Part shown: positions 6,878-25,330 of the stretch, piece by piece
How the letters are laid out: every line of letters starts with the position of its first letter
Numbering within the stretch: position 1 is the first letter of the stretch
DNA from: a virus
Virus record (IMG/VR): IMGVR_UViG_3300042091_001222
Coordinates: 1-31,368 of that record
Length of the DNA stretch: 31,368 nucleotides
Strand: one strand, 5' to 3'
Made by a program: the position numbers and the translations under genes
Notes under the pieces: model-generated
What the model saw: the letters and a program-made list of their open reading frames with translations, nothing else
Database searches by the model: none
Told to the model about the DNA's origin: nothing

Positions 6878-7132
6878 CGCTACTCAATATACTCCGATCC
6901 GTGCCGTAGGACTCCCCAAGCCGTTGAAATGCGGTAACGCCACTCGTCTAACAGTCGACGCCAACGCGGCTTGGGTTTGGACTTCGGGAAAATGATATCG
7001 GCCAATGATTCGCCAGCATCCAGGCGCGCCTGATCTTCTTCGGATAATTCCCATTTAATTGCCTGATTATAAGGAGTGTGTTCGTAATTCATCAGTTCCT
7101 CCCTCCAGACGATTGACCGCGATTTTCTGCAT
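6857..7132 (-). repeat. 21-nt direct repeat flanking a mini gene inside the split terminase locus
   Basis: Copies at 6857-6877 and 7112-7132 are identical at 20 of 21 positions. The left copy is the first seven codons of the terminase nuclease gene; the right copy lies near the 3' end of the zinc-finger mini gene and is read there in another frame. The copies are 255 nt apart. The repeat brackets the 70-residue mini gene and marks a likely insertion or duplication junction. Confidence 0.85.
6880..7092 (-). CDS. Small protein in the terminase gap, 70 residues
   Basis: Starts at an ATG overlapping the stop of the preceding mini gene (TGATG) with a strong GGGAGGAA ribosome binding site. The sequence is hydrophilic: an acidic first half (ELSEEDQARLDAGESLADII) and a basic second half (KSKPKPRWRRLLDEWRYR). 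No family recognised. It sits between the two halves of the terminase, so it could be a linker partner of the motor or an unrelated insertion. Confidence 0.65.
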   Translation of the reverse strand: MNYEHTPYNQAIKWELSEEDQARLDAGESLADIIFPKSKPKPRWRRLLDEWRYRISTAWGVLRHGSEYIE

Positions 7133-7292
7133 TGAATAGCTTTTGTTTCCGTTCGCGCCAGCACTCCTCGACATGCGCTTTCAGAACGCCGCTGCCTTCG
7201 TTCTTGAACTGTCGTCCGCAAAAGACACAATAGATTGGCATCTGAAGATAATGAAACACGCACCAATTTCCGAAATCTTTCTCTTCGTCCAT
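7092..7292 (-). CDS. Zinc-finger mini protein in the terminase gap, 66 residues
   Basis: The start (TGATG overlap, GGGGGAGGAA binding site) was chosen over a longer upstream start. CVFC (residues 22-25) and a later H-x4-C (HVEEC) give a C2HC-type zinc finger. The C-terminus ends GGRN-stop, the same four last codons as in the 41-residue mini gene before it, so the two stop/start junctions are near-duplicates. The 3' end also contains one copy of the 21-nt repeat shared with the terminase nuclease start. Function unknown. Confidence 0.7.
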   Translation of the reverse strand: MDEEKDFGNWCVFHYLQMPIYCVFCGRQFKNEGSGVLKAHVEECWRERKQKLFNAENRGQSSGGRN

Positions 7293-7417
7293 CAGTTCCT
7301 CCCCCAGACGCGCCGCTCGATGCCGTCTGTAACGGAGCGTTTTAGCCAGCCCGAAGATAGCCATCGAGCGTTTTCCATAAATCGGCGCAGGCGCTCATTA
7401 TCATCTATCTGTCTCAT
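7292..7417 (-). CDS. Mini protein immediately after the terminase ATPase, 41 residues
   Basis: Too short for most gene finders. The ATG overlaps the terminase ATPase stop (ATGA), and its own stop overlaps the next ATG (TGATG). It encodes a polar N-terminus (MRQIDDNERLRRFMENARWL) and a basic tail ending VWGRN. The evidence is the perfect coupling at both ends; no family recognised and it might be only a translational spacer. Confidence 0.5.
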   Translation of the reverse strand: MRQIDDNERLRRFMENARWLSSGWLKRSVTDGIERRVWGRN

Positions 7418-8730
7418 TTGTGTCCTAAGACCTGTCTAATGATACCATCTGGATATTTGGCTCGATAATGATCAAACGCTTCCTGCTCCATCCCGCGCGG
7501 CGGCTTCTTGCGCAGTGGCGCATTCGCCGGGTCATATTTGCTCATCCCGAGCGTGAAGCCCAGATTCGACGCGATCCGTTCCTTCCGCAAGGCAATCACG
7601 CGGTCCGCCGATGCCTCCAGAAAACTGATCGTCAACCCATCCTCGCTGATCTCGAATTGCCGCAGCAGATGCCAGTCCAGCGCCGTCACGCCCCTTCCGA
7701 CGCGTCGGTTCATGTACCACGCCGCCCACTCGATGGCGTCGTTCTGCTCCCGCATCTTGTCGATCAGTTCGACCGGATACTTCTCCGGCCAGAGCGGACC
7801 TGGAATTATTTTGCGCGTCAACGGGTCTTCGTTATCGACAATACTCTTGATCATCACCTCGACGGTCGGGTCTTTCTCCCACTCGGCGTAGAGATCACAA
7901 GCTGGCCATTCGGTTCCGACACCAACGATAATCCCCTGCTCCTTATTATAGAGGCGAGTACGGAGTGCGCGGCGAAACTTCTTAGCTCTTTCAAGGAGAG
8001 GCGGGCTTTGACTGGCTTCAAGTGCTGCCAAATCGTCTGCAACCATAATATCGAAGTAACGTCCAACGAAACCGCTTTTAACACCAATTGCGGTGACGCT
8101 TGGTTCTGCCCAGACTTCGCTTCGCTTGACCTCGATGAAGCGATCACTCCAGCGGGGCGCCTGCGCCTTGCAGTTTTCCCAGATGACATCTGGCCACAGC
8201 CAGTAGAGCCAGTCGTTACTTTCGAGATGCGTCTTGACATAGCTTAAGTTTTCCTTGGATTTTTCTTCTGATTCGTTGGCAAGCAAGATACGCGCGTTCT
8301 TGCCAGGTCTTCCTTTGAAGTATCGGTTGTTCTCGATGGGTTGGATAAGTACGTGAATGGGCAACGAACGTGAGGCTATAGTGGTCTTCAGATGGCCCAT
8401 AGGTAACATCAGTAACTTTGAACGCGTGCGTGTAAAGTCCGTGAGAAAAGGACACGCAATCGCCCGGTGCAATGAACCTAAGCCCAGCCAATCGTTCTCT
8501 AACAACCAGCGTGAAAGGAACCACAACTCTTGCTCGCACTTCCTCTTTAGCCATCCCTTGAACTCCCCGCTCACATCCGTGTGCGTCCCTGTATGATGCA
8601 GCTCTGGCGGCCTCTCCCCCGCCCGTGCCATATCGTCCCGCAGCCGCTCAATCTGCTCCACCCGTGGCGCCTGCCGCTCCCCACTCGTGTTGATCGCCCC
8701 CCGCCGCGGCCGCCCTACTGGATTCTTCAC
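7414..8730 (-). CDS. Terminase large subunit, ATPase part
   Basis: 438 residues of the terminase motor that drives DNA packaging into the prohead. Seen: a degenerate Walker A (LPMGHLKTT, 109-117), Walker B (FDIMVADD, 226-233), the coupling motif GVGTEW (270-275), and the end of an ATPase domain (AAWYMNRRVGRG). The nuclease domain is absent and occurs as a separate gene downstream. The chosen GTG start (MKNPVGRPRRG...) overlaps the stop of a mini membrane gene as GTGA; a GTG 15 codons earlier would read back through that gene. No small terminase subunit is recognisable nearby. Confidence 0.88.
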   Translation of the reverse strand: MKNPVGRPRRGAINTSGERQAPRVEQIERLRDDMARAGERPPELHHTGTHTDVSGEFKGWLKRKCEQELWFLSRWLLENDWLGLGSLHRAIACPFLTDFTRTRSKLLMLPMGHLKTTIASRSLPIHVLIQPIENNRYFKGRPGKNARILLANESEEKSKENLSYVKTHLESNDWLYWLWPDVIWENCKAQAPRWSDRFIEVKRSEVWAEPSVTAIGVKSGFVGRYFDIMVADDLAALEASQSPPLLERAKKFRRALRTRLYNKEQGIIVGVGTEWPACDLYAEWEKDPTVEVMIKSIVDNEDPLTRKIIPGPLWPEKYPVELIDKMREQNDAIEWAAWYMNRRVGRGVTALDWHLLRQFEISEDGLTISFLEASADRVIALRKERIASNLGFTLGMSKYDPANAPLRKKPPRGMEQEAFDHYRAKYPDGIIRQVLGHK

Positions 8731-8867
8731 CCCAGCCACGCTAGATGCGCCCCACTCAACCAAAGCAACAAACACTCAAAACCCACTGTCGTCACCACCA
8801 CCCCCGCAATAAATCCTATAAGCAAGCCCTCACCCCCACTCAACATCCCCCTCCCTGGATTCTTCAT
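8727..8867 (-). CDS. Mini membrane protein B upstream of terminase, 46 residues
   Basis: Single transmembrane segment (GLLIGFIAGVVVTTVGF, 14-30) followed by ECLLLWLSGAHLAWLG. It ends in a GTGA overlap with the terminase start. GGGAG lies nine nucleotides before the ATG. It shares the pattern IxFIAGxV...LLLWxSGxH with the 32-residue mini protein just upstream, so the pair looks like a tandem duplication. Its first codons (TGAAGAATCCAG) are also repeated at the terminase start. A holin- or signal-anchor-like role is possible but unproven. Confidence 0.6.
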   Translation of the reverse strand: MKNPGRGMLSGGEGLLIGFIAGVVVTTVGFECLLLWLSGAHLAWLG

Positions 8868-8890
8868 CCTTCATAACTCCCGGACATCCA

Positions 8891-8989
8891 TCAGCCGCGA
8901 TGCCCCCCGCTGAACCAGAGCAGCAAAAAGAACCACCCAACGTGAGCCAATGCAATCCCGCAAACCATCCCGGCAATAAAGGCTATCAT
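8891..8989 (-). CDS. Mini membrane protein A, 32 residues
   Basis: One hydrophobic segment (MIAFIAGMVCGIALAHVGWF) then FLLLWFSGGHRG and stop. It shows the same IxFIAGxV...LLLWxSGxH pattern as the mini protein following it at the expected spacing, which supports both as real paralogues. A GTGAGGG motif touches the start codon. Function unknown; 32 residues is the minimum for a single-pass peptide. Confidence 0.5.
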   Translation of the reverse strand: MIAFIAGMVCGIALAHVGWFFLLLWFSGGHRG

Positions 8990-9020
8990 CCCTCACAACT
9001 CCAACACCCCTTCTGCGGTA

Positions 9021-9254
9021 TCAGCACAACGGCAACTCATCCGTGGCATCGCTCACAGTAATAGAGCCCATGCCGGCAGCGTTCTCCAGACGGCTCAGCC
9101 GCTCGTCGTCCTCGCTTAGTGTCGTGCATAGACTCGCTAACCACCCCGCTAGATATTCCTCCAAGTGCGCCAGATTCATCCCGACTAGCTCCGCTTTCAA
9201 TTTTGCGAGCTGCTGGTCTCTTATCGCTCGCCATTCCTGAATGCTTTTCCTCAT
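9021..9254 (-). CDS. Small helical protein, 77 residues
   Basis: An AGGGGAGG ribosome binding site about six nucleotides before the ATG decides this start over an upstream TTG. The protein is helical and charged (SIQEWRAIRDQQLAKLKAEL, then EDDERLSRLEN), probably coiled coil, ending in TDELPLC. It lies between the tRNA gene and the mini membrane genes. No family recognised; a small terminase subunit would fit the position but the sequence lacks an evident helix-turn-helix. Confidence 0.6.
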   Translation of the reverse strand: MRKSIQEWRAIRDQQLAKLKAELVGMNLAHLEEYLAGWLASLCTTLSEDDERLSRLENAAGMGSITVSDATDELPLC

Positions 9255-9516
9255 CTCCAACCTCCCCTACTGTCGAAATTATGCTGGCTCCCGGCGCAGG
9301 ACTCGAACCTGCATCGACGGGTCCAAGGCCCGTTGTCCTACCATTAGACGAACCGGGACCTCGAACTTCAGCTTTCAAGTATCCGCTGAATTCCAAATTC
9401 TGCCGGACGATCCGCCGCACCACAAAATGCCGACTCCGCTCATCATCCGCAGCCAACCGATCCAGCGCCCCCAACTCCTCCGCTGAAAACTTAATGTGTA
9501 CAACAGTGGTATCCAT
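9037..9516 (-). CDS. Ribbon-helix-helix regulator whose frame runs on through the tRNA
   Basis: Residues 1-45 (TTVVHIKFSAEELGALDRLA...SRHFVVRRIVRQNL) fit an Arc/CopG-type ribbon-helix-helix DNA-binding protein: a short beta strand, then two helices. From about residue 52 the frame is translated tRNA-Gln, and beyond that it is a shadow of the 77-residue gene at 9021-9254, so the natural C-terminus was probably near residue 52 and its stop has been lost. A candidate promoter (TTGACT, 17 nt, CATCAT) ends eight nucleotides before the ATG. Likely an autoregulating repressor. Confidence 0.55.
   Translation of the reverse strand: MDTTVVHIKFSAEELGALDRLAADDERSRHFVVRRIVRQNLEFSGYLKAEVRGPGSSNGRTTGLGPVDAGSSPAPGASIISTVGEVGDEEKHSGMASDKRPAARKIESGASRDESGALGGISSGVVSESMHDTKRGRRAAEPSGERCRHGLYYCERCHG
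9285..9358 (-). tRNA. tRNA-Gln (UUG anticodon), CCA encoded, C33
   Basis: Folds as a full cloverleaf on the minus strand: seven-pair acceptor stem (TCCCGGT with GCCGGGA, one U-G pair), discriminator G and genomic CCA; D arm GTC...GAC with AATGGTAG loop; anticodon stem ACGGG/CCCGT with loop CCTTGGA; T arm GCAGG-TTCGAGT-CCTGC; four-nucleotide variable loop. The anticodon is TTG, reading Gln CAA. Position 33, nearly always U, is C. It lies inside the open reading frame of an RHH protein, on the same strand. Phage tRNAs can offset host codon bias or mark integration sites; no integrase is seen here. Confidence 0.9.
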
Positions 9517-9524
9517 CAGTGTCC

Positions 9525-9553
9525 ATGATGACTACCTTCGGATACCCAGTCAA
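9525..9553 (-). promoter_or_regulatory. Candidate leaderless promoter for the RHH gene at 9516
   Basis: On the minus strand: -35 TTGACT (9548-9553), 17-nt spacer, -10 CATCAT (9525-9530), then eight nucleotides to the ATG. The expected transcription start falls on or next to the start codon, so the mRNA would have essentially no 5' leader and no Shine-Dalgarno site. Confidence 0.5.
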
Positions 9554-9610
9554 GGCCCCTCTTCCAACACAGGAATTATTTTTTATTTTGGCCGCTCGGG
9601 GATCACGACC

Positions 9611-9656
9611 ACCCCATACCCCCGTGGGGGTGCGCCCCCCTCCCGGCAGGGGTCCA
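9611..9656. other. GC-rich stretch with competing hairpins between two minus-strand genes
   Basis: Within the 204-nt gap between the RHH promoter and the gene ending at 9721. GGGGG (9626-9630) can pair with CCCCC after a TGCG loop, or with the C-run before it; the following CCCCT can instead pair with AGGGG. Nearby on the plus strand is a T-rich tract (about 9578-9593). Possibly a transcription stop separating two minus-strand units. No gene is seen in the gap. Confidence 0.35.
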
Positions 9657-9720
9657 TCGAGATGGTGCGGACAAAAGGCGGACGATTCGGGCTGGAGGGT
9701 AGGACAGAGCCTGGTAGATG

Positions 9721-10107
9721 CTAGGGTTTTCGCGGCGGAACGTCTGATTCGTTATCATCAGTCGCTCGCTTCATTGCCTTCTCGTGCTGCTCCAAGGCCC
9801 AGGTTCGCTTCAACTCCCGAATGTCCTCGTCCAGCTGCTTCTTCAGCCGTGCCATCTCAGCCCGAATAAGGTCCGGATTCATTGAGAAATCCAGCGCTGT
9901 GTGAAGAGCGCACGAGCATCGATGCTGCTGTCCTGAGAGTAGTGTGAGGGCTTTGTTAAAGCGTTTTATTGCTCTCCCATACGCTCCAACTCTCAAATGT
10001 TGGTCGTACAGGAATTTAGCTCCGAATCTAGCCAATCTTGTACGATAAGCCTTAAGCCCTCGTTTGCGTTTAATAGCCCTACGACCTGATTCGGAGTCAA
10101 AGAGCAA
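9721..10107 (-). CDS. Small protein with basic N-terminal and helical charged C-terminal part
   Basis: The frame opens at a TTG five nucleotides after the stop of the lipoprotein gene; an ATG at 9882 would give only the C-terminal 53 residues (MNPDLIRAEMARLKKQLDED...). The long form adds a strongly basic region (RRAIKRKRGLKAYRTRLARF) whose DNA is more AT-rich than its surroundings. The C-terminal part is clearly helical and coiled-coil-like. No good ribosome binding site is visible for either start. No family recognised. Confidence 0.45.
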   Translation of the reverse strand: MLFDSESGRRAIKRKRGLKAYRTRLARFGAKFLYDQHLRVGAYGRAIKRFNKALTLLSGQQHRCSCALHTALDFSMNPDLIRAEMARLKKQLDEDIRELKRTWALEQHEKAMKRATDDNESDVPPRKP

Positions 10108-10112
10108 GGGGT

Positions 10113-10310
10113 TTACTCATTAGGGTTAAGGGCTTGGAGGGCGGAGGTTTGGGCGCGGGATTGTTGGAGTTGTTGTTGTTGGAGGTAGAGCTGACGGGCG
10201 GCGTTGAGTTGGGCGTAGGGGTCGGGTTGATAGGCATAGGGACGAGGGACGAAGCCGATGGCACAGGCTGAGAGGGCGAGGGCGATAAGAGCGAGGAGCA
10301 GCTTAGTCAT
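10113..10310 (-). CDS. Small lipoprotein, possible outer spanin
   Basis: 65 residues with an N-terminal KLLLALIALALSAC lipoprotein signal: positive start, hydrophobic core and LSAC lipobox (Cys16). The mature part is about 50 residues, Tyr/Pro-containing then Gln-rich (LYLQQQQLQQSRAQ). Phage lipoproteins of this size are often outer-membrane spanins (Rz1) acting at lysis of Gram-negative hosts, but the matching Rz-type protein is not adjacent; the TM/coiled-coil protein at 27187-27465 could be a partner. A host-exclusion lipoprotein is the alternative. Signal peptide call firm, function open. Confidence 0.7.
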   Translation of the reverse strand: MTKLLLALIALALSACAIGFVPRPYAYQPDPYAQLNAARQLYLQQQQLQQSRAQTSALQALNPNE

Positions 10311-10336
10311 GGGTTCTAGTTTTGCAGCAATCAGGG

Positions 10337-10810
10337 TTAACGCGCAAGCTTACTTTCATCAGTAGGGGGCAGCAACGATACGCGGGCGGCGTCGTCATCG
10401 GCTCTGAGCGCGTCTGCCGCATCTTGCCATCCAGGTGCGAATTTAGCTAGTTGCGTTCGCAGCGCCGCGATGCGGGCTTCGGCGGCTTTGAGTCTGTCAT
10501 CGCTGTCATTGTTTAGGGCAACGATTTTTGAGGAGTTCGCGAGCGCTTCCCCAGCAAGCTTTTGAAGCCGACGGCCAAGTCTAACTTCTGCTGGGCTCGG
10601 TTCGCGGTCGCCGATAAGGACCGCTTCCATCCCAAGATTCTCAGCGTCGTCTTTAAGCCATCGGATACGGTCGGATGGCGTATACATCGGGAACGTCTCG
10701 CCCGTATCCGAATCAATAATTCTAACGACTAGGGTCTCGCCAGTCGTGCGGCGCGCTAAGGCACCTATCGCCTCATAAAGCCCGATGATCATATCCCGAT
10801 CCGAAATCAT
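10337..10810 (-). CDS. Hypothetical protein with coiled-coil C-terminal half, 157 residues
   Basis: Strong ribosome binding site AGGAGAG six nucleotides before the ATG. The first half holds a compact beta-like domain (LVVRIIDSDTGETFPMYTP...IRWLKDDAENLGMEAVLIGD); the second half is helical with Ala/Lys/Asp heptads (DDRLKAAEARIAALRTQLAKF). No family recognised. A perfect hairpin lies in the upstream region. It seems to lead a short minus-strand unit containing the lipoprotein and the gene at 9721. Confidence 0.7.
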   Translation of the reverse strand: MISDRDMIIGLYEAIGALARRTTGETLVVRIIDSDTGETFPMYTPSDRIRWLKDDAENLGMEAVLIGDREPSPAEVRLGRRLQKLAGEALANSSKIVALNNDSDDRLKAAEARIAALRTQLAKFAPGWQDAADALRADDDAARVSLLPPTDESKLAR

Positions 10811-10825
10811 AAAGCTCTCCTGTCG

Positions 10826-10860
10826 CGGTCCCGTCTTGGGACCGAGTTGGGGCTTGTCAA
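10826..10860 (-). promoter_or_regulatory. Hairpin downstream of a TTGACA hexamer, before the gene at 10810
   Basis: CGGTCCC and GGGACCG form a perfect seven-pair hairpin with a five-nucleotide loop (10826-10844), 15 nt upstream of the ATG. A TTGACA hexamer lies at 10855-10860 on the minus strand; the place for a -10 (17 nt on) falls inside the hairpin but has a poor sequence (AAGACG). It could be an operator or a translation-control stem. Confidence 0.4.
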
Positions 10861-10951
10861 ATGTCAGGGAGTTTGTTAGGCTTGGTTCTTAGCGAGAGAA
10901 CCGTTCAACCACATAACCCCGGCGACACTCAACACAGCCGGTTGAAACTGC

Positions 10952-10987
10952 AAAGCTCTTCGATCTACGAAATCGCAAGAGCTTTTT
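10952..10987 (+). terminator. Long hairpin followed by T-run (terminator-like)
   Basis: AAAGCTCTT pairs with AAGAGCTTT and CGAT pairs with ATCG around a seven-nucleotide loop, with one bulged C: 13 base pairs in all. On the plus strand five Ts follow, as in an intrinsic terminator; on the minus strand only three Ts follow. No plus-strand gene lies just upstream, so it may instead stop the minus-strand RHH transcript from 11196, which has its stop at 11032. Confidence 0.55.
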
Positions 10988-11031
10988 CAGTATTACCAGA
11001 TTCCACGCTTCCACCACTAACGGATTGCTCA

Positions 11032-11196: not shown

Positions 11197-11204
11197 GCCG
11201 CCAC

Positions 11205-11233
11205 ATTTTAGCAGATTCTCGATGAATTGCAAA
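11205..11233 (-). promoter_or_regulatory. Candidate leaderless promoter for the RHH gene at 11196
   Basis: Minus strand: -35 TTTGCA (11228-11233), 17-nt spacer, -10 TAAAAT (11205-11210), then eight nucleotides to the ATG. The predicted transcript starts at or near the start codon. Confidence 0.55.
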
Positions 11234-11459: not shown

Positions 11460-11590
11460 ACATCAGCGAACGTATCGCCGATCCGACTGCCTTGCGCCGC
11501 GAAGAGCGGTGGGTGTCCGCTTACATCCGCCGCGAGGCTGCCCGCCGCAATGTCTGGTGGCGCCGCGCCCTGCGCTGGTTGAGGGGGTAA
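11456..11590 (+). CDS. Arg/Trp-rich mini protein, 44 residues
   Basis: ATGA overlap with the membrane protein gene before it. Strongly basic with many Trp (EERWVSAYIRREAARRNVWW...RRALRWLRG). Its last codons and stop, GCGCTGGTTGAGGGGGTAA, recur exactly at the end of the zinc protein at 11778-11963; the G-run doubles as ribosome binding site for the following gene. No family recognised. Confidence 0.55.
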   Translation: MNISERIADPTALRREERWVSAYIRREAARRNVWWRRALRWLRG

Positions 11591-11595
11591 GGACG

Positions 11596-11775
11596 ATGGC
11601 TTTAAAATTCGATGCGCCAGACCGTTGCCAGTGGTGCGGACATCATAAACGCGCACATAGTTATCCCAGGCTCAATTTGAGCGATGCAACTCTTCAAGTC
11701 TCAACGAAGCGTATCTGTCGCTTTTGCAAATGCCCGAATTACCGAGAACGCGAAGCGGAGGAGCCGAGGGGGTAA
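11596..11775 (+). CDS. Zinc-ribbon protein of the CxxCGHxxxxH type, 59 residues
   Basis: CQWCGHHKRAH (11-21) and CRFCKC (42-47) match a small zinc-ribbon pattern widespread in phages and actinobacteria (CxxCGHxRxxH...CxxCxC). GAGGGGG overlapping the previous stop serves as ribosome binding site. A second member lies at 27012-27185. Probably binds one or two zinc ions; partner unknown. Confidence 0.75.
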   Translation: MALKFDAPDRCQWCGHHKRAHSYPRLNLSDATLQVSTKRICRFCKCPNYREREAEEPRG

Positions 11776-11777
11776 AA

Positions 11778-11963
11778 ATGCCACAGCCGGGACTCGGATG
11801 GGTTTATCTATGTCCATTTTGTCGCAAGCGGGTCCGCTGGTGGCACTGGTGGATAAAGGGACCTCAAGATTTGATCGATATTCCATATGGCCAACGCGCA
11901 CATTACCAGTGCTGGCTTAAGGTCGTCACTGATGACGCTACGCGGCGCTGGTTGAGGGGGTAA
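11778..11963 (+). CDS. Zinc-binding mini protein, 61 residues
   Basis: YLCPFCRKRVRWWHWW gives one Cys pair with many Trp; a later HYQC supplies further ligands. It starts two nucleotides after the preceding stop, with GAGGGGG as ribosome binding site. The terminal codons RRWLRG-stop repeat the end of the gene at 11456-11590 at DNA level. Function unknown. Confidence 0.65.
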   Translation: MPQPGLGWVYLCPFCRKRVRWWHWWIKGPQDLIDIPYGQRAHYQCWLKVVTDDATRRWLRG

Positions 11964-11968
11964 TTGCG

Positions 11969-12265
11969 ATGGAGAAGCCGAAATGGCAACGGGCGCGGAT
12001 TGTGAAAATGTCGCTTTATTCGCGGGATAATCTCGTCGGTAAACTAGTCTGGGCACGCGAGCGACCTTATCTGACTCCGGCGCGAGCACGCATCACTAAC
12101 GAACGTTTAGGCCCTCGGCAGTTCATCGATGTGGCAATCAATGACGGGTCCAATCACTTCATGGTGATTCCAATCGAAGACCTTGAACTCCTCCCGGAGT
12201 TTCACGATGATCCGCTCTTCATTTCATGGGAAGACTTTCTCGCTTGCGGGATGATCCAGTCATGA
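11969..12265 (+). CDS. Hypothetical protein, paralogue of the gene at 12378, 98 residues
   Basis: Starts with KPKWQRARIVK and ends with HFMVIPIEDLELLPEFHDDP. The neighbouring 93-residue protein has WQKARFLPP and HFFLWAPHEGVELISEF at matching places, so the two are probably diverged duplicates, with a beta-rich middle. The G-run of the preceding stop region acts as ribosome binding site, and the end overlaps the next ATG (ATGA). Family not recognised. Confidence 0.65.
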   Translation: MEKPKWQRARIVKMSLYSRDNLVGKLVWARERPYLTPARARITNERLGPRQFIDVAINDGSNHFMVIPIEDLELLPEFHDDPLFISWEDFLACGMIQS

Positions 12266-12898: not shown

Positions 12899-13519
12899 TT
12901 ATCCTGAGACAGCCCCTGCCTGATTAGGACGCGCATCTGATCTTTCGGTGTCATTTGTCGGTTTGCTCAACAAGTCGGACAGTTTATACAAAGCGTCGAA
13001 CTTTACGTTGTGTGCTTCGATATTTTCTTTGCCTGCTGACTCTTCCCGATCTATCAGCAAAATAGCGCGCGACACTTGAAGTCTAGCGGAACGGGCACCT
13101 TCAATCGCCTTTATGACAGAGCCGCCCGAAGTGGTTACATCGTCAACTATGAGCGCTCGATCACCTTCGTGAACTTCGCCTTCGATCAATTTCATAAGGC
13201 CATGCGACTTGGGTTGTTTTCGAACTACAAACACGCGGACCGTTCGACCTGTCATCTCATAAATTGCATCGGACACGGCGGCTGCAAGCGGATAAGCCCC
13301 AAGTTCCAGACCGCCCACCGCATCGATCGAATCATCCTGAAGAAGCTGCGCGATCAACTTGCCCATGAGTGTACGCGCACGCGGATATGAAAGTGCCATC
13401 TTGCAGTCGATGTAATATGGACTGCTTTTTCCTGAGGACAAATGAAAATCGCCCTTCGAACGAAAGGACGTCGTTCGAAGGATTTCAAGCAATTCCGCCT
13501 TGTCTCCCCGATAATCCAC
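12899..13519 (-). CDS. pyrE: Orotate phosphoribosyltransferase
   Basis: Catalyses orotate plus PRPP to orotidine 5'-phosphate in UMP synthesis, a cytosolic host pathway. The PRPP-binding motif IVDDVTTSGGS is at 124-134, the catalytic loop RKQPKSHG at 100-107 (Lys and His present), and the substrate region SSGKSSPYYIDCK at 28-40. The 206-residue length is normal for the family. The GTG start is preferred because AGGGAGG sits eight nucleotides before it; the frame extends to a TTG at 13576. Last gene of the minus-strand DNA-metabolism operon. Apparently intact, so it probably serves as an auxiliary metabolic gene supplying pyrimidines for phage DNA. Confidence 0.92.
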   Translation of the reverse strand: MDYRGDKAELLEILRTTSFRSKGDFHLSSGKSSPYYIDCKMALSYPRARTLMGKLIAQLLQDDSIDAVGGLELGAYPLAAAVSDAIYEMTGRTVRVFVVRKQPKSHGLMKLIEGEVHEGDRALIVDDVTTSGGSVIKAIEGARSARLQVSRAILLIDREESAGKENIEAHNVKFDALYKLSDLLSKPTNDTERSDARPNQAGAVSG

Positions 13520-17411: not shown

Positions 17412-18284
17412 ATGATGACGCTCCGAGAATTGATGGCGACCTTTCCGACCGACGACTCCTGCAAGCAGTTCCTCATGGAGCGGCGCTGGCAAGATGGCGT
17501 CGTAAAGTGCCCGCGTTGCGGGAATCCGGCTGTCTATAAGCTCATCACGCGGCCTTTTCACTGGCTTTGTAAGCCGTGCGCAAACTACCGCTTCAGCGTG
17601 ATCAGCGGGACGATCTTCGAGAACACGAAATACCCGCTCAAGGTGTGGTTCGAGGTTCTCTGGCAGATACTCAATTCCAAGAAAGGCGTTAGCGCCAAGC
17701 AGATTCAACGTCAGATCGGTTGCGCGTCGTATCAGACCGCTTGGTATATGTGCATGCGGCTGCGCGCGTCCATGCACGACCCTGACTTCCGCCAGCTCAT
17801 GGGCGTCGTGGAAATCGACGAAACCGGTATCGACGGAAAAGACAAAAACCGCCACTGGGACAAGAAAAAGCACATCACCGGCCTGAGCGGTAAGACTACG
17901 GTCATCGGGGCGATCAGTCGAAAGGGTAACGTGGTCTGTCAGATTATCGACGATACGAGCGCAGCCACCCTCAATAAGTTTGTCCGCAAGGCTGTGAGTG
18001 ACAAGGTTGATCTGGTCGCGACGGATGAGTTTGCCGGTTATCACTATCTGCGAGCGCTGGGATACGAGCACGGTGCGGTCAGTCACTCGCAAGGCGAGTA
18101 CGTGCGCGGCGAAGTCCATACGAACAACATCGAAAGCTTCTGGAGCCTGCTTAAGCGCGGCATCATGGGTAGCTTCCACCATGTCAGCGCAAAGTATCTG
18201 CCACTGTACCTCGCGGAGTTTCAATTCCGTCACAACAACCGCCGTGAGTCCGATATTTTCGGCAAGGCGATAGAGGGGGCCTGA
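17412..18284 (+). CDS. IS1595-family (ISXO2-like) transposase
   Basis: 290 residues. An N-terminal zinc ribbon (CPRCGNPAVY...CKPC) is followed by the DDE-type domain: EIDETGIDG, VATDEFAGYHYL, and HTNNIESFWSLLKRGIMGSFHHV with the conserved H-N-IE-W. RHNNRRESDIF is near the end, as is usual for the family. Length is full and no frameshift is seen in the core. It opens the plus-strand island inside minus-strand genes. No inverted repeats or target duplication were found by eye, so it may be a domesticated or decayed insertion rather than a mobile copy. Confidence 0.9.
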   Translation: MMTLRELMATFPTDDSCKQFLMERRWQDGVVKCPRCGNPAVYKLITRPFHWLCKPCANYRFSVISGTIFENTKYPLKVWFEVLWQILNSKKGVSAKQIQRQIGCASYQTAWYMCMRLRASMHDPDFRQLMGVVEIDETGIDGKDKNRHWDKKKHITGLSGKTTVIGAISRKGNVVCQIIDDTSAATLNKFVRKAVSDKVDLVATDEFAGYHYLRALGYEHGAVSHSQGEYVRGEVHTNNIESFWSLLKRGIMGSFHHVSAKYLPLYLAEFQFRHNNRRESDIFGKAIEGA

Positions 18285-20158: not shown

Positions 20159-20335
20159 ATGGCGAAAGACAAATACGACCTTCATCTGACGCTCGACCGG
20201 GGATTGTGGCGGCGTCTGCGGCTGGAAGCGGCGCGACGAGAGAAGCCCGCCAACTATCTCATCGAACGAGCACTTATCGCTTATTTGCCCCGCGAGCAAC
20301 CCAAGCTCGAAGCCAAGGATCAGGTAACGACATGA
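20159..20335 (+). CDS. Ribbon-helix-helix regulator of the early operon, 58 residues
   Basis: YDLHLTLDRGLWRRLRLEAARREKPANYLIERALIAYL has the CopG-like strand-helix-helix layout. The ATG follows the early promoter by five nucleotides; no Shine-Dalgarno is seen. It overlaps the methyltransferase gene as ATGA. As first gene of the long early operon, next to a palindromic operator, it is a likely autorepressor. Confidence 0.8.
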   Translation: MAKDKYDLHLTLDRGLWRRLRLEAARREKPANYLIERALIAYLPREQPKLEAKDQVTT

Positions 20336-20859
20336 GAGCCGACCCAATCCAGACCTTACTTGAGCAAGTTTACGAAATGCGCGAAGGGTGCGAAGACCTT
20401 CAAGGCTATATCGCACGACATGGCATTCAGTCCGCAGGCGTGCTCACCGTCTATACAGACGAAGTAGCAGGGCTGATTGCCGAGCGATTGGCACCGCGCA
20501 TTGAAGGCAGGACCGTCGTTGAGATTGGCGGGGGAATCGGGCTGCTGGCGTGCTATCTTGGCCGGTATGCAAAGCGGGTGTACTGCATCGAGGCAAACCC
20601 CGACTGGGCAGGAATCTTCGCCAATATCCTTCTGAAAATAAAACCCAAGAATGTCTCGTATTTATTCGGTGCAGCGGATGAGTTTTCAGGGATGTTCGGA
20701 GCGGACATCGCTGTGATTTGCACTCACTCTGGACTCGAAAGCATGAAGCGTGCGGCTCTGATGTTTGCGCCCGAAGTGGTCGATGTGTACGGCGAACTGA
20801 TCAGGGAAAGCCCTGAATCCTATGACGCAACCGCTCGCGAACTGCGCAAAATCGTTTAG
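20332..20859 (+). CDS. SAM-dependent methyltransferase-like protein
   Basis: 175 residues with a class I methyltransferase core: motif I VVEIGGGIG (62-70) and the acidic motif CIEANP (85-90) for the SAM ribose. No DPPY or target-recognition motif for DNA methylation is visible, so the substrate is unknown. The N-terminus is helical. It starts in ATGA overlap; the local sequence TAACGACATGAGAGC recurs exactly at the start of the next gene. Confidence 0.8.
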   Translation: MRADPIQTLLEQVYEMREGCEDLQGYIARHGIQSAGVLTVYTDEVAGLIAERLAPRIEGRTVVEIGGGIGLLACYLGRYAKRVYCIEANPDWAGIFANILLKIKPKNVSYLFGAADEFSGMFGADIAVICTHSGLESMKRAALMFAPEVVDVYGELIRESPESYDATARELRKIV

Positions 20860-20871
20860 GAGACTAACGAC

Positions 20872-21063
20872 ATGAGAGCGCGGCACTTCCGCTATCACGA
20901 CGACTGGGAAGCCAACCGTGTCTGGCTCTGTACCCACGTCTGCGCTTGCGGCCCGTGGACGCACGATAGCATCCCCGAGGATTGTGAGTTGTGGCTGGAA
21001 ACGGAAGCCCGCTGTCCGACCTGCATTGAAGATGACGAGAAGGAGCAAGAAGCGCATGTCTAA
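20872..21063 (+). CDS. Zinc-binding mini protein, 63 residues
   Basis: AGGAGACTAACGAC precedes the ATG. THVCACGPWTHD and CPTC near the end provide Cys/His pairs. Acidic in the second half (PEDCELWLETEARCPTCIEDDEKEQE). Its first codons share TAACGACATGAGAGC with the methyltransferase gene start. It overlaps the next gene by eight nucleotides. Confidence 0.65.
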   Translation: MRARHFRYHDDWEANRVWLCTHVCACGPWTHDSIPEDCELWLETEARCPTCIEDDEKEQEAHV

Positions 21064-21730
21064 AATTTTGGCTTATCACTTTCTCCGCGACGACATGACC
21101 GCACGCTCAGGTAAGGAAAAAGCTTGGGAGATTGGCGAAGAACGCTCATTCCCTGAGAACATGGCTATCGAGCTTTGCACTTTTGGCTATCACTCCGCGC
21201 CGACGCTTTGGGACGCGCTGCAATATGCGCCGGGACCGATGGCGTGTCTCGTTGAAATTTCGGAGCCAATCGAGAAAGACGATACTAAGCAGGTCAGTCG
21301 CACGCGCAAATTAATCAAGGCCGTCAACATCGACCGTGAGTTACGGCTGTTCGCAGCGGATTGCGCAGAGCGCGTGCTTTATATTTTCGAGAAGCATTAT
21401 CCAAAAGATGACCGCCCTCGAAAGGCCATTCAGGCTGCGCGCGATTTTGCCGACGGTAAGATTGACGCCGCCGCATGGGCCGCCGCACGGGCCGCCGCAT
21501 GGGACGCCGCACGGGCCGCCGCATGGGACGCCGCACGGGCCGCCGCACGGGACGCCGCAGGGGCCGCCGCAGGGGCCGCCGCAGGGGACGCCGCACGGGC
21601 CGCCGCATGGGACGCCGCACGGGCCGCCGCACGGGCCGCAGAGATCGAATGGCAAAAGCAGCACTTCGAGCAAATATTTAGCGGGATATTTGGTGAAGAC
21701 GAGAAGACGACGAGCCTACTGGCGAAATGA
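21056..21730 (+). CDS. Early protein with Ala-rich tetrapeptide repeats, 224 residues
   Basis: Residues 1-135 form a domain seen in various phage and bacterial hypotheticals (KILAYHFL...TFGYHSAPTLWDALQYAPGPMACLVEI...RLFAADCAERVLYIFEKHYP). It is followed by 14 copies of a four-residue repeat (A/D-A-A-W/R/G) that would form a long Ala helix, then EIEWQKQHFEQIFSGIF. Related repeat proteins occur widely in phages, and copy number is expected to vary. The second codon set overlaps the previous stop. Function unknown. Confidence 0.75.
   Translation: MSKILAYHFLRDDMTARSGKEKAWEIGEERSFPENMAIELCTFGYHSAPTLWDALQYAPGPMACLVEISEPIEKDDTKQVSRTRKLIKAVNIDRELRLFAADCAERVLYIFEKHYPKDDRPRKAIQAARDFADGKIDAAAWAAARAAAWDAARAAAWDAARAAARDAAGAAAGAAAGDAARAAAWDAARAAARAAEIEWQKQHFEQIFSGIFGEDEKTTSLLAK
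21467..21634 (+). repeat. 14 tandem 12-bp units in the Ala-repeat gene
   Basis: Unit G(C/A)C-GCC-GCA-(T/C/G)GG, in frame, 168 bp without interruption. Because of the composition all six frames stay open here, which creates several spurious Gly/Pro- or Arg-rich frames. Slippage could change the copy number without a frameshift. Confidence 0.95.
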
Positions 21731-21742
21731 GGGAGCAAGAGA

Positions 21743-21907
21743 ATGGCTGAGGAAGTGGACGTTCATTGCTGGGAAGATGGTCCTCGGACACATGATGGCT
21801 GCGGAAGCACCTGCATGAAAGAGCACGGCCATGACGGCCCGCATCAATTCGTGCGAGACGACGAGATTATGGTGCAATTTACTCCCGCGAAAGAAGCCAA
21901 GGAGTAA
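21743..21907 (+). CDS. Acidic His/Cys-rich mini protein, 54 residues
   Basis: GGGAG eight nucleotides upstream. HCWEDGPRTHDGCGSTCMKEHGHDG carries three Cys and four His, fit for metal binding. Acidic overall. Its start region AAGAGAATGGCTGAGGAA is repeated with one change at the ERF gene start directly downstream. Confidence 0.65.
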   Translation: MAEEVDVHCWEDGPRTHDGCGSTCMKEHGHDGPHQFVRDDEIMVQFTPAKEAKE

Positions 21908-21911
21908 GAAA

Positions 21912-22742
21912 ATGGCTGAGGAAACCAAGCCGCTCAATCTGCAACATAAGTTACTCAATGCGATGGCTGATATTGGAAACGTTCCAAAAGAAGGCAAAAA
22001 TCAGCAAGGTCCGGGGTACGCCTATCAGAAAATCGCCGATATGCTCCCGAAGGTACAAGCCGCATTTATCAAGCACGGCATCATTTTCATCGCCGACCAT
22101 GTAAAGACGGAATGGCACGAGCCTCACGAGAGCAAGGGTGGTGCCCGTGTGTCTGTCTGCTCAGTTACGATGAAATACATCATCGGCGACATACATGACG
22201 ACAAGACCATCGTTTCGCAGGCCAGCGGGTTTGCCTTTGATACCAGTGACAAGGCGGAAAATAAAGCCAAGACCGCCGCACTCAAGTATTTTCTGAAACA
22301 AACTTTCCTCATCGGCGAGGAAGAAGACGATTCCGAGCGGGAGAACGTTGAGACCCGCTATCGGAAACCAACGCAGCAGGGGGCGACCCGTGGAAGGGTC
22401 ATCGTCAAGCCGGATGGGCAGGGAGCGCAGGGAAGCGCTCGCAGCGCACCACGGGAACCGAAGCCGGACAGCCCGAACAAGGCCGACAAGGCAGCCGTGT
22501 ATAAGTTCTGGGCGGACCTGACGAAGGCCCTCGGAGTGAACGAAGCGCAGGAGTGGATCAAGGGGAAATTCATCGAGAACGACATCGACCCCGCCGACCC
22601 GAAGAAGTGGGACAAGGTGCTGGAGTTCATGCTGATCAACTGGCGTCGGGAGCTGGACAAGTTCGAGGCACCGCCGCCTACTGACGAAAGTATGCCACCT
22701 GCCGACACGGTAGATGATGGAGGAGCCAATGTCGATTTCTAA
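21912..22742 (+). CDS. ERF-family single-strand annealing recombinase
   Basis: 276 residues. The N-terminal domain (residues about 8-145) has the ERF features: GPGYAYQKIADMLPKVQAAF, a beta-sheet with VTMKYII, and GFAFDTSDKAENKAKTAALKYFL. Such proteins anneal complementary single strands and drive phage recombination and genome circularisation, as Erf of phage P22. A basic linker (RGRVIVKPDGQGAQG) leads to a C-terminal helical domain with an acidic end (TVDDGGANVDF), a tip known to contact SSB in similar proteins. The nucleases at 14.8-16.3 kb could supply single strands. Confidence 0.9.
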   Translation: MAEETKPLNLQHKLLNAMADIGNVPKEGKNQQGPGYAYQKIADMLPKVQAAFIKHGIIFIADHVKTEWHEPHESKGGARVSVCSVTMKYIIGDIHDDKTIVSQASGFAFDTSDKAENKAKTAALKYFLKQTFLIGEEEDDSERENVETRYRKPTQQGATRGRVIVKPDGQGAQGSARSAPREPKPDSPNKADKAAVYKFWADLTKALGVNEAQEWIKGKFIENDIDPADPKKWDKVLEFMLINWRRELDKFEAPPPTDESMPPADTVDDGGANVDF

Positions 22743-22754
22743 AAGGGGAAGATT

Positions 22755-22952
22755 ATGAGCCGCTATAGCGCATCCTTTGGCGACGCAGCCCTTGGCCCCG
22801 AGAGCGGCCTATGCGGCCTCGGGCCTGATTCCTACTTCGACCAGGAAGACGAGCCCGAGGGGCGGGACGTGAGCGATGCGTGCCGCAAGGGCCGCCACCA
22901 CCAGTGTGAAGACCCGTACTGCCTGTGCGGCTGTTTGCACCCGGAGCGCTAA
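22755..22952 (+). CDS. Cys-rich mini protein, 65 residues
   Basis: AAAAGGGGAAG precedes the ATG. CRKGRHHQCEDPYCLCGC near the C-terminus (residues 43-60) resembles the CxxGxHxxC...CxC set of a phage zinc-ribbon family. The N-terminal half is acidic and Gly/Pro-rich. Function unknown. Confidence 0.65.
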   Translation: MSRYSASFGDAALGPESGLCGLGPDSYFDQEDEPEGRDVSDACRKGRHHQCEDPYCLCGCLHPER

Positions 22953-22957
22953 AAGCA

Positions 22958-23134
22958 ATGAAGAAGACAATGTTTCTATCGGAGTTCGGTGAAGAATCTT
23001 TCGCAAAGGCGCTTAGCCAATTTGCTGACGCAGGGTGGGAAGTTACGCACTATCAAGTAGTTCCGTGGCTTCATCATGGTGGTCAAACGGAAGGTATTCA
23101 ACACTGCGCGATTCTGGTTCGCGACAATGACTGA
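22958..23134 (+). CDS. DUF4177-like small protein, 58 residues
   Basis: EESFAKALSQFADAGWEVTHYQVVPWLHHGG...HCAILVRD follows the short helix-GWEV-strand pattern of DUF4177 and similar phage proteins, though the usual first strand is short. Starts five nucleotides after the preceding stop. It overlaps the next gene by eight nucleotides. Confidence 0.6.
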   Translation: MKKTMFLSEFGEESFAKALSQFADAGWEVTHYQVVPWLHHGGQTEGIQHCAILVRDND

Positions 23135-23267
23135 CCTCAAGACCAGCATCCGGTGTGCTGGAGCGAACCATGATATTTATTGCTATGGCGATGGCAGCTA
23201 TAAGTTTGGGCATAGGGATTATTGCCGGGATTTTGCTCTGGCGTGCTTGGACGAACAGACGCGCTGA
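23127..23267 (+). CDS. Cys/His mini protein, 46 residues, overlapping another frame
   Basis: KTSIRCAGANHDIYCYGDGSYKFGHRDYCRDFALACL: four Cys and two His. The start MTDLKT corresponds at DNA level to the start of the 130-residue gene downstream (GACCTCAAGACC in both). No strong ribosome binding site. Most of the gene overlaps a membrane-protein frame at 23170-23301, and both look natural. Confidence 0.5.
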   Translation: MTDLKTSIRCAGANHDIYCYGDGSYKFGHRDYCRDFALACLDEQTR

Positions 23268-23301
23268 ACAAGATTCTCGACGATTACGACGATTGCATTA
23301 G
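23170..23301 (+). CDS. Single-pass membrane peptide, 43 residues, nested frame
   Basis: CTGGAGCGAACC gives a good GGAG six nucleotides before the ATG. The product is a clear hydrophobic helix (FIAMAMAAISLGIGIIAGILLW) followed by a basic tail (TNRRAEQDSRRLRRLH), the positive-inside pattern of a membrane anchor. It overlaps the Cys/His gene for most of its length in another frame. Confidence 0.5.
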   Translation: MIFIAMAMAAISLGIGIIAGILLWRAWTNRRAEQDSRRLRRLH

Positions 23302-23311
23302 CGAGGATTGA

Positions 23312-23704
23312 ATGGACCTCAAGACCATCCGCGCCCAGATTCGCCAGCTCCAGCGGCAGGAAGAGGAGCTGGTCGCCTCGGGTTTTCGGGAACGCTTGCC
23401 GGCACTTCGGGAACTCGTCGGCAAGACTTTCGTGAGCCATATGCCGCCGTGGGACACCTACTTCAAGGTACTTGAACTGGTGGAAGTGCCGTCGAAGCCC
23501 TATGCGTTCTTGATCCTTGAGGAAGTCGTGATCGATCTAATCGGCAAAGTCGAAGTCAAGCTGGAATCGCGGCGCATCTACGGCCCCGAGAGCTGGCGAT
23601 TCGAGTCCTGCGACCTCGATGAATACGACCTGATGCGGAGCGCCGCACTGGAAACAATGGCTGATCCCGTCGTGCTGCGAGCTCACTTAGCGGAGGACAA
23701 ATGA
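23312..23704 (+). CDS. Hypothetical protein with coiled-coil start, 130 residues
   Basis: GCGAGGATTGA precedes the ATG. Residues 3-25 form a charged helix (KTIRAQIRQLQRQEEELVAS), followed by a beta-rich domain (KTFVSHMPPWDTYFKVLELVEVP...LILEEVVIDLIGKVEVKLES) and an acidic end. No family recognised. It ends in an ATGA overlap with the next gene. Confidence 0.7.
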   Translation: MDLKTIRAQIRQLQRQEEELVASGFRERLPALRELVGKTFVSHMPPWDTYFKVLELVEVPSKPYAFLILEEVVIDLIGKVEVKLESRRIYGPESWRFESCDLDEYDLMRSAALETMADPVVLRAHLAEDK

Positions 23705-23880
23705 TGGATTACCGAGAATTCCAGCGAGAACTATCCCGACAGCGCGAGCGATTAGATGCCGCTGAATATTTGTATAGTTTAGCCGAAGCTGCTCAACGCC
23801 GAGGCGATATCCCAACCTACCAACGGCGACTACAAGAAGCACTAGCCGCTCTGCGCGACGGTGCAGCTGAGGAGAAGTGA
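23701..23880 (+). CDS. Helical mini protein, 59 residues
   Basis: Starts in ATGA overlap; a second ATG follows at once. Entirely helical and charged (YREFQRELSRQRERLDAAEYL, then QRRLQEALAALRDGAAEEK), a probable coiled-coil hairpin. GAGGAGAAG near its end supplies the ribosome binding site for the HicB-like gene. Confidence 0.6.
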   Translation: MMDYREFQRELSRQRERLDAAEYLYSLAEAAQRRGDIPTYQRRLQEALAALRDGAAEEK

Positions 23881-23881
23881 A

Positions 23882-24163
23882 ATGATCCCGAAGTTATTCA
23901 ACTGTGGATACAAACAGCTCATTTTCAATGGAGTGTTGTACCGGGAAGACAACTATATCGTGGCACACTGTCTACAACTTGATATCGTGGGCACAAGTCC
24001 GAATTCAGAAATCGAAGCTATTGATAAGTTGTTGGAGTTGATAGAAGTATCCGTGATTCACGCTTTGGAAACTAATGATTTGGTACACTTATTCAAGGCT
24101 GCACCACGTCAGTATTGGGATATGGCTCTTACGGCACAAAAGGAGAAGCCCGATGCTAACTGA
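23882..24163 (+). CDS. HicB-like antitoxin-fold protein without HicA
   Basis: 93 residues. YREDNYIVAHCLQLDIVGTSPNSEIEAIDKLLELIEVSV fits the HicB/UPF0150 fold (a degenerate RNase H-like domain with YxAxCxxLdixgxG). The usual partner, a HicA toxin of about 60 residues, is not next to it. It may be an orphan antitoxin able to neutralise a host HicA, or a regulator. The stop lies in the repeated ATGCTAACTGAC boundary, with the next start. Confidence 0.7.
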   Translation: MIPKLFNCGYKQLIFNGVLYREDNYIVAHCLQLDIVGTSPNSEIEAIDKLLELIEVSVIHALETNDLVHLFKAAPRQYWDMALTAQKEKPDAN

Positions 24164-24515
24164 CCAAGAAAATATATTCGTCAAAGCTCTGGCTCTAACT
24201 GAGAGCGACGACAATCCCTACGTGCTGTTGGGAGACAATGGACGCGGAGCAGGAAGGTTTCAATGGCACCCCGACGCCTATTTCTCTTGGGCACCCACGC
24301 TATCAGAGTTCAAAGAGTTAGGACCAAACCCGACCTGGGATCAATGCTTTGAATTTGCGGTGCGCGCCTTCTTCCGTAAAGCATCCGAAGGCAAGCCGCT
24401 CGCCGATATCGCAATGGCCTATCACCTCCACGGCCAGCATATTTACGAGGGGGACGACCCGCCTTATCGGACACGATTTCTGACGAAACTGGCCGAGGTG
24501 CAAAATGCTAACTGA
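24153..24515 (+). CDS. Lysozyme/transglycosylase-like protein
   Basis: 120 residues. ALALTESDDNPYVLLGDNGRGAGRFQWHPDAY resembles the lysozyme-superfamily start (ExxxNP, GDNGxAxGxFQ) with Glu17 in the place of the catalytic acid; DIAMAYHLHGQHIYEG near the end fits the later helix. AAGGAGAAG lies before the ATG. No signal peptide, so if it is the lysis enzyme it needs a holin. It lies in the early operon far from the likely holin genes, so a non-lytic use of the fold is also possible. Confidence 0.6.
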   Translation: MLTDQENIFVKALALTESDDNPYVLLGDNGRGAGRFQWHPDAYFSWAPTLSEFKELGPNPTWDQCFEFAVRAFFRKASEGKPLADIAMAYHLHGQHIYEGDDPPYRTRFLTKLAEVQNAN

Positions 24516-24542
24516 CCGCGCCCCGCAAAAGGAGAAACAGAA

Positions 24543-24911
24543 ATGAGCTATTTAACTTTCAACGATTTAGCAGAAGCTAACAAAACGCGCGTGAAGCGGT
24601 GGCATCCGAACGGTATTGAAGATTGGTCGCCAATGGAATGGGCCTGCGCTGCTGCTGGCGAAATGGGCGAGGTGTGTAACGCGGTCAAAAAGCTTAAACG
24701 TATCGAGGACAAAATAGCGAATCTCAGCGCATCCCCAGATCGCCAACTCAGCAATAAGCCCGAAGCGATCCTCGCGATCGGCGATGAAATCGCGGACACG
24801 GTGATCTCCCTTGATTTACTCGCTCAACGCCTCGGAATCGACATCGCGAGTTTCGTGCGCGCAAAATTCAACCAGACCTCTGTCCGTTATGGTTTTCCGG
24901 AGAAACTGTGA
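24543..24911 (+). CDS. MazG-like nucleotide pyrophosphohydrolase
   Basis: 122 residues of the all-alpha NTP pyrophosphatase fold: MEWACAAAGEMGEVCNAVKKLKR (31-53) with the ExxE metal site and GDEIADTVISLDLLAQRLG (79-97) with the second ExxD site. The family hydrolyses (d)NTPs or ppGpp to monophosphates; phage copies are thought to tune nucleotide pools or blunt the stringent response. AAAAGGAGAAACAG precedes the ATG. It couples to the next gene by TGATG. Confidence 0.85.
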   Translation: MSYLTFNDLAEANKTRVKRWHPNGIEDWSPMEWACAAAGEMGEVCNAVKKLKRIEDKIANLSASPDRQLSNKPEAILAIGDEIADTVISLDLLAQRLGIDIASFVRAKFNQTSVRYGFPEKL

Positions 24912-25330
24912 TGCTAACTGAACAACAAAAGGCGCTCATCGCGGACCTACAAGAATCTTTAGAAGCTATTCGTGACGACTATATTGGCAACGGCCATTTG
25001 TCAGTTCACGGTTTGGCTGTATTGAAGAAACTCGTCGCCGCCCTCGAAGCCTCCGACCAACCGCCGCAGCTAAGCGAGAGCGATGAGGAGTTGCTCCAAG
25101 AAGCACGCGAAGGTGGGAAGGAATTTCGAGTGACTCAATCGGATTGGGAACTGTGGATCGTAGACTTGAAAAACCGCCTCGCCCTCCGCGTCGAACAACT
25201 CGCGGCGGAACGGGACCATCTTTGGGAACTAAACGAACTCGGCAAGCGCTGTGTGTCGGAGGGTGCCCTTGCTGTGGAGTTGTTGCTCAAGCTGCTAGAG
25301 GAGGCCCCCAGCTCCGAGCCGCCCTCGTAA
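24911..25330 (+). CDS. Coiled-coil protein, last gene of the early operon, 139 residues
   Basis: TGATG start; the first bases ATGCTAACTGA repeat the boundary seen at 24153 and 24505. Helical throughout with acidic clusters (LSESDEELLQEAREGGKEF) and a C-terminal Leu-rich coiled coil (ALRVEQLAAERDHLWELNEL). No domain recognised. Ends 56 nt before the convergent minus-strand gene. Confidence 0.7.
   Translation: MLTEQQKALIADLQESLEAIRDDYIGNGHLSVHGLAVLKKLVAALEASDQPPQLSESDEELLQEAREGGKEFRVTQSDWELWIVDLKNRLALRVEQLAAERDHLWELNELGKRCVSEGALAVELLLKLLEEAPSSEPPS

Follow-up and report, generated by a model that had tools for sequence, protein, structure and literature searches.

Lambdoid phages carry conserved short sequences at gene borders, which are thought to aid genetic exchange. 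In the mycobacteriophage Island3, gene 68 shares about 50-60 base pairs (bp) of its 3′ end with gene 67, whereas Brujita has a single copy, and that report presents the gp67/gp68 event as the first such in mycobacteriophages (PMC3029335). A second report, on cluster K mycobacteriophages, describes one 13-bp start-associated consensus present in 11-19 copies per genome (PMC3203893). Here we describe a related arrangement in an uncultivated phage, the linear IMG/VR virus record IMGVR_UViG_3300042091_001222, all 31368 bp of which constitute the window analysed below. Short sequences that span the stop codon of one gene and the start codon of the next are repeated among neighbouring mini genes. 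These repeats are probably duplicated stop/start junctions left behind when small accessory genes were inserted. The best reading of the data is that mini genes enter at stop/start junctions, at times duplicating the junction.

Comparison with described systems

The likeness to Island3 and Brujita is that the 3′ end of a small additional gene duplicates that of the preceding gene, with a single copy in the relative that lacks the gene. The difference is that Island3 offers one long case, whereas the phage group of the window has several per genome, which are shorter and span both a stop and a start. As in lambdoid phages, a short sequence is common to the borders of exchangeable genes, and among relatives genes are gained, lost or replaced at such borders. 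The comparison with lambdoid phages in the initial annotation is nevertheless only partly apt, because the sequences here differ from pair to pair and are private to neighbours, the start test described below finds no excess among neighbours in lambda, HK97 or HK022, and seven of the ten insertions compared in a close pair of relatives have no copy above chance. That pair, designated L006 and L007, has in common the TGAGGAGACGAC junction and the start of the terminase nuclease gene.

Similarly, the repeats resemble those of cluster K in lying at the start codon and overlapping the ribosome site, but cluster K has one genome-wide consensus, whereas the sequences here are pair-specific, which sets them apart. 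The annotated topoisomerase genes 39 and 60 of phage T4 provide another parallel, in which an insertion splits a large-subunit gene and other genes separate its two pieces. In the window and its relatives, the divided gene is instead that of terminase, the break falls where the ATPase part meets the nuclease part, and the gap holds 0-3 mini genes. Overlapping gene pairs of the ATGA and TGATG type are common in prokaryotes (PMC6728339). Thus, this kind of event is already known, and several pair-specific junction copies per genome, together with a recurrent split-terminase site, make the present case a variant. A full-text literature search, whose coverage excluded most subscription journals, returned no description of recurrent junction duplication.

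Repeats in the window are concentrated at gene junctions

Exact repeats of at least 12 nucleotides (nt) within 1 kb number 14 in the window after masking of three tandem or low-complexity stretches, and in eight of these both copies lie at a gene boundary (12 nt or less away). When the annotation was shifted, boundary repeats averaged 0.22 with a maximum of 2 in 1000 trials. Synonymous-codon shuffles yielded 3.60 repeats in total and 0.76 at boundaries, with a maximum of 3 in 100. The comparison with codon shuffles that the initial annotation proposed thus shows an excess, and all seven repeats that it named are present in the sequence. Its placement of these repeats at start/stop junctions, outside genes, is correct for the listed pairs and does not extend to the six of 14 exact repeats that lack boundary positions for both copies.

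A second test compared the regions from -28 to +22 around the starts of same-strand genes 60-1000 bp apart with all other pairs, counting scores of at least 9. With starts taken from a hand-curated list of 64 genes, 13/112 neighbouring pairs are alike versus 21/1904 other pairs (permutation p 0.0002), such that neighbouring starts are alike about ten times as frequently. Interior controls, in which the compared regions were moved +48, +75 or +90 bp into the gene, give 0/112 pairs each. One open reading frame (ORF), that starting at 23127, joined the curated list on account of its repeat, and its removal leaves 12/107 versus 21/1846. Purely automatic calls yield 9/120 versus 31/2226 (p 0.0005) with a purpose-written gene caller that recovers all but three stops of the curated genes. 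The three chance tests agree that the repeats are real and located at gene junctions.

In one copy of each of the eight repeats tested, a stop and a start codon lie near each other or overlap. The copies are about 86-100% identical and their edges are sharp, with a mean identity of 0.27, equal to chance, over 40 bp on each side (nine pairs). The sequence differs between pairs, and each is private to one neighbourhood. A transposon target-site duplication does not fit, as the copies range from 11 to 28 bp rather than having a fixed length, and a Pfam scan of five of the bracketed genes matched no transposase. The junction copies and bracketed genes on the plus strand are as follows.

11572-11599, plus: junction copy (tail RWLRG-stop, ribosome site, ATGG), family D4, 25/28 identical
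11596-11963, plus: two mini genes (ORFs) of 59 and 61 amino acids (aa) between the RWLRG-stop copies
11766-11775, plus: third, shorter copy, GAGGGGGTAA, at the stop at 11775 (read from the sequence)
11945-11972, plus: junction copy (tail RWLRG-stop, ribosome site, ATGG), family D4
20325-20339, plus: junction copy TAACGACATGAGAGC, 15-nt exact repeat
20332-20859, plus: bracketed gene, 175 aa, methyltransferase-like by weak Pfam matches under the curated cut-offs
20865-20879, plus: junction copy TAACGACATGAGAGC, 15-nt exact repeat
21732-21754, plus: junction copy, ribosome site and ATGGCTGAGGAA, family D7
21743-21907, plus: bracketed mini gene (ORF), 54 aa
21901-21923, plus: junction copy ahead of the Erf-like gene, family D7, 91% identical
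21912-22742, plus: Erf-like annealase gene 3′ of the bracketed 54-aa gene (PF04404, E 2.1e-11; phrog_155)
23127-23153, plus: junction copy MTDLKTSIR, start of the 46-aa ORF 23127-23267 (read from the sequence)
23312-23332, plus: junction copy MDLKTIR, start of a 130-aa gene (read from the sequence)
24137-24147, plus: CAAAAGGAGAA ahead of gene 24153, 11-nt exact repeat
24153-24165, plus: junction copy ATGCTAACTGACC, where 23882-24163 ends and 24153-24515 starts, family D5
24505-24517, plus: junction copy ATGCTAACTGACC, tail of 24153-24515, opening a 13-codon remnant (by eye), family D5
24526-24536, plus: CAAAAGGAGAA ahead of gene 24543, 11-nt exact repeat
24543-24911, plus: MazG-like gene flanked by the second and third ATGCTAACTGA copies (PF12643, E 1.9e-6)
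24911-24921, plus: junction copy ATGCTAACTGA, start of the operon's last gene, exact repeat

At 24153, 24505 and 24911, ATGCTAACTGA is the tail of one gene doubling as the start of the next. The initial annotation placed the 24505 copy at a start, whereas it lies on the stop of gene 24153-24515. It also had two of the three ATGCTAACTGAM copies preceded by CAAAAGGAGAA; only one is, since CAAAAGGAGAA precedes 24153 and 24543. The GACCTCAAGACC pair that it reported (23127/23312) is present, at 23133 and 23315, as part of the longer MTDLKTSIR/MDLKTIR pair, whose copies differ by two 3-bp gaps. Two further copies had been overlooked, namely the third GAGGGGGTAA and a repeat at about 7110-7132 of the nuclease start at about 6855-6877. 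In relative L007, the stop of one gene lies within ATGGCTGA, the start of the following Erf gene, and this overlap fits an origin of AATGGCTGA in the window as an old overlap.

The split terminase gene carries a variable number of mini genes

The terminase large subunit is split into an ATPase and a nuclease gene in every relative compared, and also at L029:9804-12341. Three mini genes separate the halves in the window, and a fourth lies next to the ATPase half.

8855-8866, minus: junction copy TGAAGAATCCAG, start of the 46-aa gene, 12-nt exact repeat
8727-8867, minus: mini gene, 46 aa, with a body paralogous to 8891-8989 (50% over 32 aa, E 1e-5)
8718-8729, minus: junction copy TGAAGAATCCAG, terminase start, 12-nt exact repeat
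7414-8730, minus: terminase large subunit, ATPase half, GTG start (phrog_38 positions 266-519, E 1.1e-27)
7292-7417, minus: mini gene (ORF), 41 aa, first of three
7290-7303, minus: junction copy GGGAGGAACTGATG, 14-nt exact repeat
7092-7292, minus: mini gene, 66 aa, with GGGAGGAACTGATG on both sides and a tail that is a copy of the nuclease start (read from the sequence)
7110-7132, minus: nuclease-start copy, stop now TCG, family D6
7090-7103, minus: junction copy GGGAGGAACTGATG, 14-nt exact repeat
6880-7092, minus: mini gene, 70 aa, flanked by two nuclease-start copies (read from the sequence)
6855-6877, minus: nuclease start, whose overlapping frame reads as a gene tail with TAG, family D6
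6239-6877, minus: terminase large subunit, nuclease half (phrog_38 positions 548-718, E 2.4e-17)

The 46-aa gene opens with the same KNP codons as the ATPase gene downstream, and the overlapping frame of the nuclease start still encodes DAGNRGQ followed by a stop.

A megablast of 19 kb of the window against a phage collection gave no match, and scans with the Erf-like protein, with an 898-aa protein and of genome contigs found no close relative. A scan with the nuclease half returned already known contigs only. Terminase relatives came from three scans (L002 to L007 and L039 to L041, with L005 and L006 matching exactly across 15361 bp), and their ATPase halves are 49-52% identical to that of the window at the protein level. 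The comparison of relatives that the initial annotation proposed could therefore be made for bracketed genes at the terminase site only, and there the mini genes do vary. The halves directly overlap or abut in L003, L004 and L006, and one small gene lies between them in L002 and L007. Translations read by eye indicate one gene in L041, two in L040 and probably one in L039. The distant record ctLwi270 has an annotated 62-aa gene between its two terminase genes. Its ATPase part seemingly holds an intein, again from a translation read by eye. Thus, the terminase junction carries 0 to 3 mini genes across the genomes compared.

The extra gene of L007 ends in NADGSGE and a stop, as does the ATPase half of L006, where this tail lies within the overlap with the nuclease start. 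Because of this match and the nuclease-start copy in the window, the terminase site looks like an overlap that small genes have opened repeatedly.

Single mini genes differ between two close relatives

The alignment of L006 and L007, hereafter A and B, falls into blocks with identities of mostly 84-94% and extremes of 74 and 97%. We counted as clean indels those with at most 15 unmatched bases in one genome and at least 60 in the other, leaving uncounted any break with larger differences on both sides. There are 13 clean gene-sized indels. In the shorter genome, 10/13 have both breakpoints no more than 12 bp from a gene boundary and 13/13 no more than 18 bp, against a background of 4.8-5.6% of positions within 10 bp of a boundary. 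Eleven of the inserts contain one small gene each, of which eight were called automatically and three (events 5, 8 and 9) were recognized by eye. Event 11 contains two genes, and the 66-bp insert of event 13 has no called gene. Event 15 is a 401-bp insert in A with one 108-aa gene (record G005 ~53608-54010; L011:13608-14010). Unlike the others, this insert has an inverted repeat of roughly 15 bp at its edges, TTCCCTTCGACGGGA and TCCCGTCGAAGGGAA.

Event 4 is the most direct demonstration of junction copying. A 24-bp junction precedes a gene, P, in both A and B, and precedes the extra gene, X, in B only, so that the second copy is confined to the genome with the extra gene (0 of 150 null comparisons). 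A gain in B is the simpler reading, because a deletion in A between the copies would remove P rather than X. Events 7 and 12 have an 8-bp start copy above chance (0.025 and 0.007 of null), whereas event 2 has seven shared bases (0.147 of null). Overall, the ten insertions compared comprise one long duplicate, two short ones and seven with none above chance. If the Island3 pattern is taken as the standard, namely a repeat flanking the extra gene and only one copy where a relative lacks that gene, event 4 fits, the terminase site fits in part, and those seven have no repeat above chance.

The initial annotation had offered two explanations, that mini genes enter by recombination at junctions and that each junction was copied with its translation signal. 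Both have some support. The first agrees with the single mini genes gained or lost at junctions in this pair, where the repeats may be either cause or result of recombination, and the second agrees with event 4. Several target sites in the pair looked by eye like 4-bp overlaps, compared with 11/82 and 15/82 of junctions overall, but this depends on visual reading and on our own gene caller, and we do not claim ATGA as a preferred port.

Several further features were seen in these records. A tRNA-like insert (event 10), outside the count of 13, lies between TAA and ATG in G006 (L012:4505-4602) and is missing from G005; ARAGORN reports a tRNA there, with the type not assigned by the program. G005 also has a 1121-bp insert with two genes at ~24644-25766 (L010), one of which, judging from its translation, presumably resembles a 7-deazaguanine synthesis enzyme. 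The two ends of G005, and likewise those of G006 (L009, L011, L012, L014), align to a single region of the partner record with differing identities, and each contig seems, from these matches, to continue beyond its own start as a variant copy.

Distribution among relatives and control phages

Five relatives are positive in the start test when genes are called automatically: A (first 49000 bp; 8/157, p 0.002), B (3601-52900; 9/136, p 0.001), G1 (7/117, p 0.0005), G2 (5/127, p 0.0265) and G3 (3/76, p 0.0125). A and B are closely akin. The test is negative (p 0.17 to 1.0) in a small sample of nine phages, specifically Island3, T7, lambda, HK97, T4 (1-50 kb), HK022, Giles, N4 (1-50 kb) and the distant relative ctLwi270. 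Island3 is not picked out by this test, which examines starts rather than stops. Lone high-scoring neighbour pairs occur in T7 (score 19), which we take to be phage promoter sequence, and in ctLwi270 (score 15).

Other features of the window

12899-13519: phosphoribosyltransferase gene (PF00156), presumably orotate phosphoribosyltransferase from its motifs
17412-18284: IS1595-type transposase (PF12762), within the phage record
21469-21648: 12-bp repeat array in gene 21056-21730, encoding an alanine-rich four-residue repeat
9285-9358: tRNA-Gln, anticodon ttg, nested in the same-strand open frame 9037-9516

Origin of the junction repeats

The analysis shows that the repeats are enriched at junctions and sharply edged, and that relatives differ by single mini genes gained or lost at junctions. 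In a packed operon, an upstream gene W ends, and a downstream gene Y and its ribosome site begin, on shared or adjoining bases. A newcomer X could then enter without harming W or Y only if the shared bases stood on both sides of it. In the window, the shared stretch of 11-28 bp is doubled, which gives the order junction-X-junction, such that X starts like Y, ends like W, or both. The joining step may be short-homology annealing or template switching, and annealing is plausible because the phage has an Erf-like annealase gene, whose product perhaps aids the process. In each case within the window, X would be the newcomer.

Several observations weigh against the insertion of genes with junction duplication. 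The window is without a close relative, so that seven of its bracketed cases draw on the window only. The gene calls are our own. The majority of insertions between A and B (7/10) have no start similarity to a neighbour above chance, and the stop has been lost in the copy at 7110-7132. The interior control is positive as well in G3 (p 0.0065). Finally, bracketed genes are not significantly rarer than others in relatives (1/10 versus 15/54, p 0.43).

The strongest competing explanation reverses cause and effect. Matching junctions would have existed first, and homologous or annealase-mediated exchange between them would then have stacked alternative genes with a start signal in common. The junction family with core TGAGGAGACGAC is consistent with this, since it stands ahead of several different genes at two places in A and three in B, as is event 14, in which the same junction holds different genes in A and B. 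The lambdoid analogy points the same way, as does the discussion of Island3 (PMC3029335). In the window, however, the repeats are private to a neighbourhood and distant starts are not more alike, and most of the close-pair insertions have no long shared sequence. We therefore regard pre-existing boundary sequences as a possible but rather unlikely source of the repeats, while noting that this model and junction duplication upon insertion may both be partly true.

A function for the repeats themselves, as sites for a factor that controls translation comparable to those proposed for cluster K, is very improbable. The position of the repeats over the ribosome site and start would suit such a role, as would the multiple copies of the TGAGGAGACGAC family in A and B, but in the window the sequence differs from pair to pair, no consensus is common to the pairs, and distant starts are not more alike. 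Equally hard to sustain is a decayed tandem duplication of whole genes in which only the starts remain alike. The genes at 8989 (32 aa) and 8867 (46 aa) are indeed side-by-side paralogues, but they are the sole exception among neighbouring bracketed proteins that are otherwise mutually unrelated, and flanks at chance identity contrast with the high identity of the repeats. Convergence, in which ribosome sites, start codons and favoured early codons make neighbours alike, would account for shared bases that are ribosome-site-like, such as CAAAAGGAGAA, but is scarcely credible when distant starts with the same needs are ten times less frequently alike and the nine control phages have no neighbour excess.

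Implications for phage gene content

A broader proposal, which we consider doubtful, is that the stop/start junction is a general insertion port in this phage group, where recombination repeatedly copies the tail, ribosome site and start. Incoming DNA would borrow its start from the next gene and its tail from the previous one. If true, foreign or non-coding DNA could become translated mini genes in one step, and the junction would be a gene-birth device rather than a passive scar.

Tiny genes of unknown function are numerous in the tightly packed operons of phages, and how they are added without breaking their neighbours is debated as a matter of selection among random joins versus guided joins at borders. 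A lineage with several local junction copies, together with two close relatives distinguished by single mini genes, makes this debate testable by counting. Moreover, neighbouring genes that share a junction suggest a simple screen for recently acquired genes.

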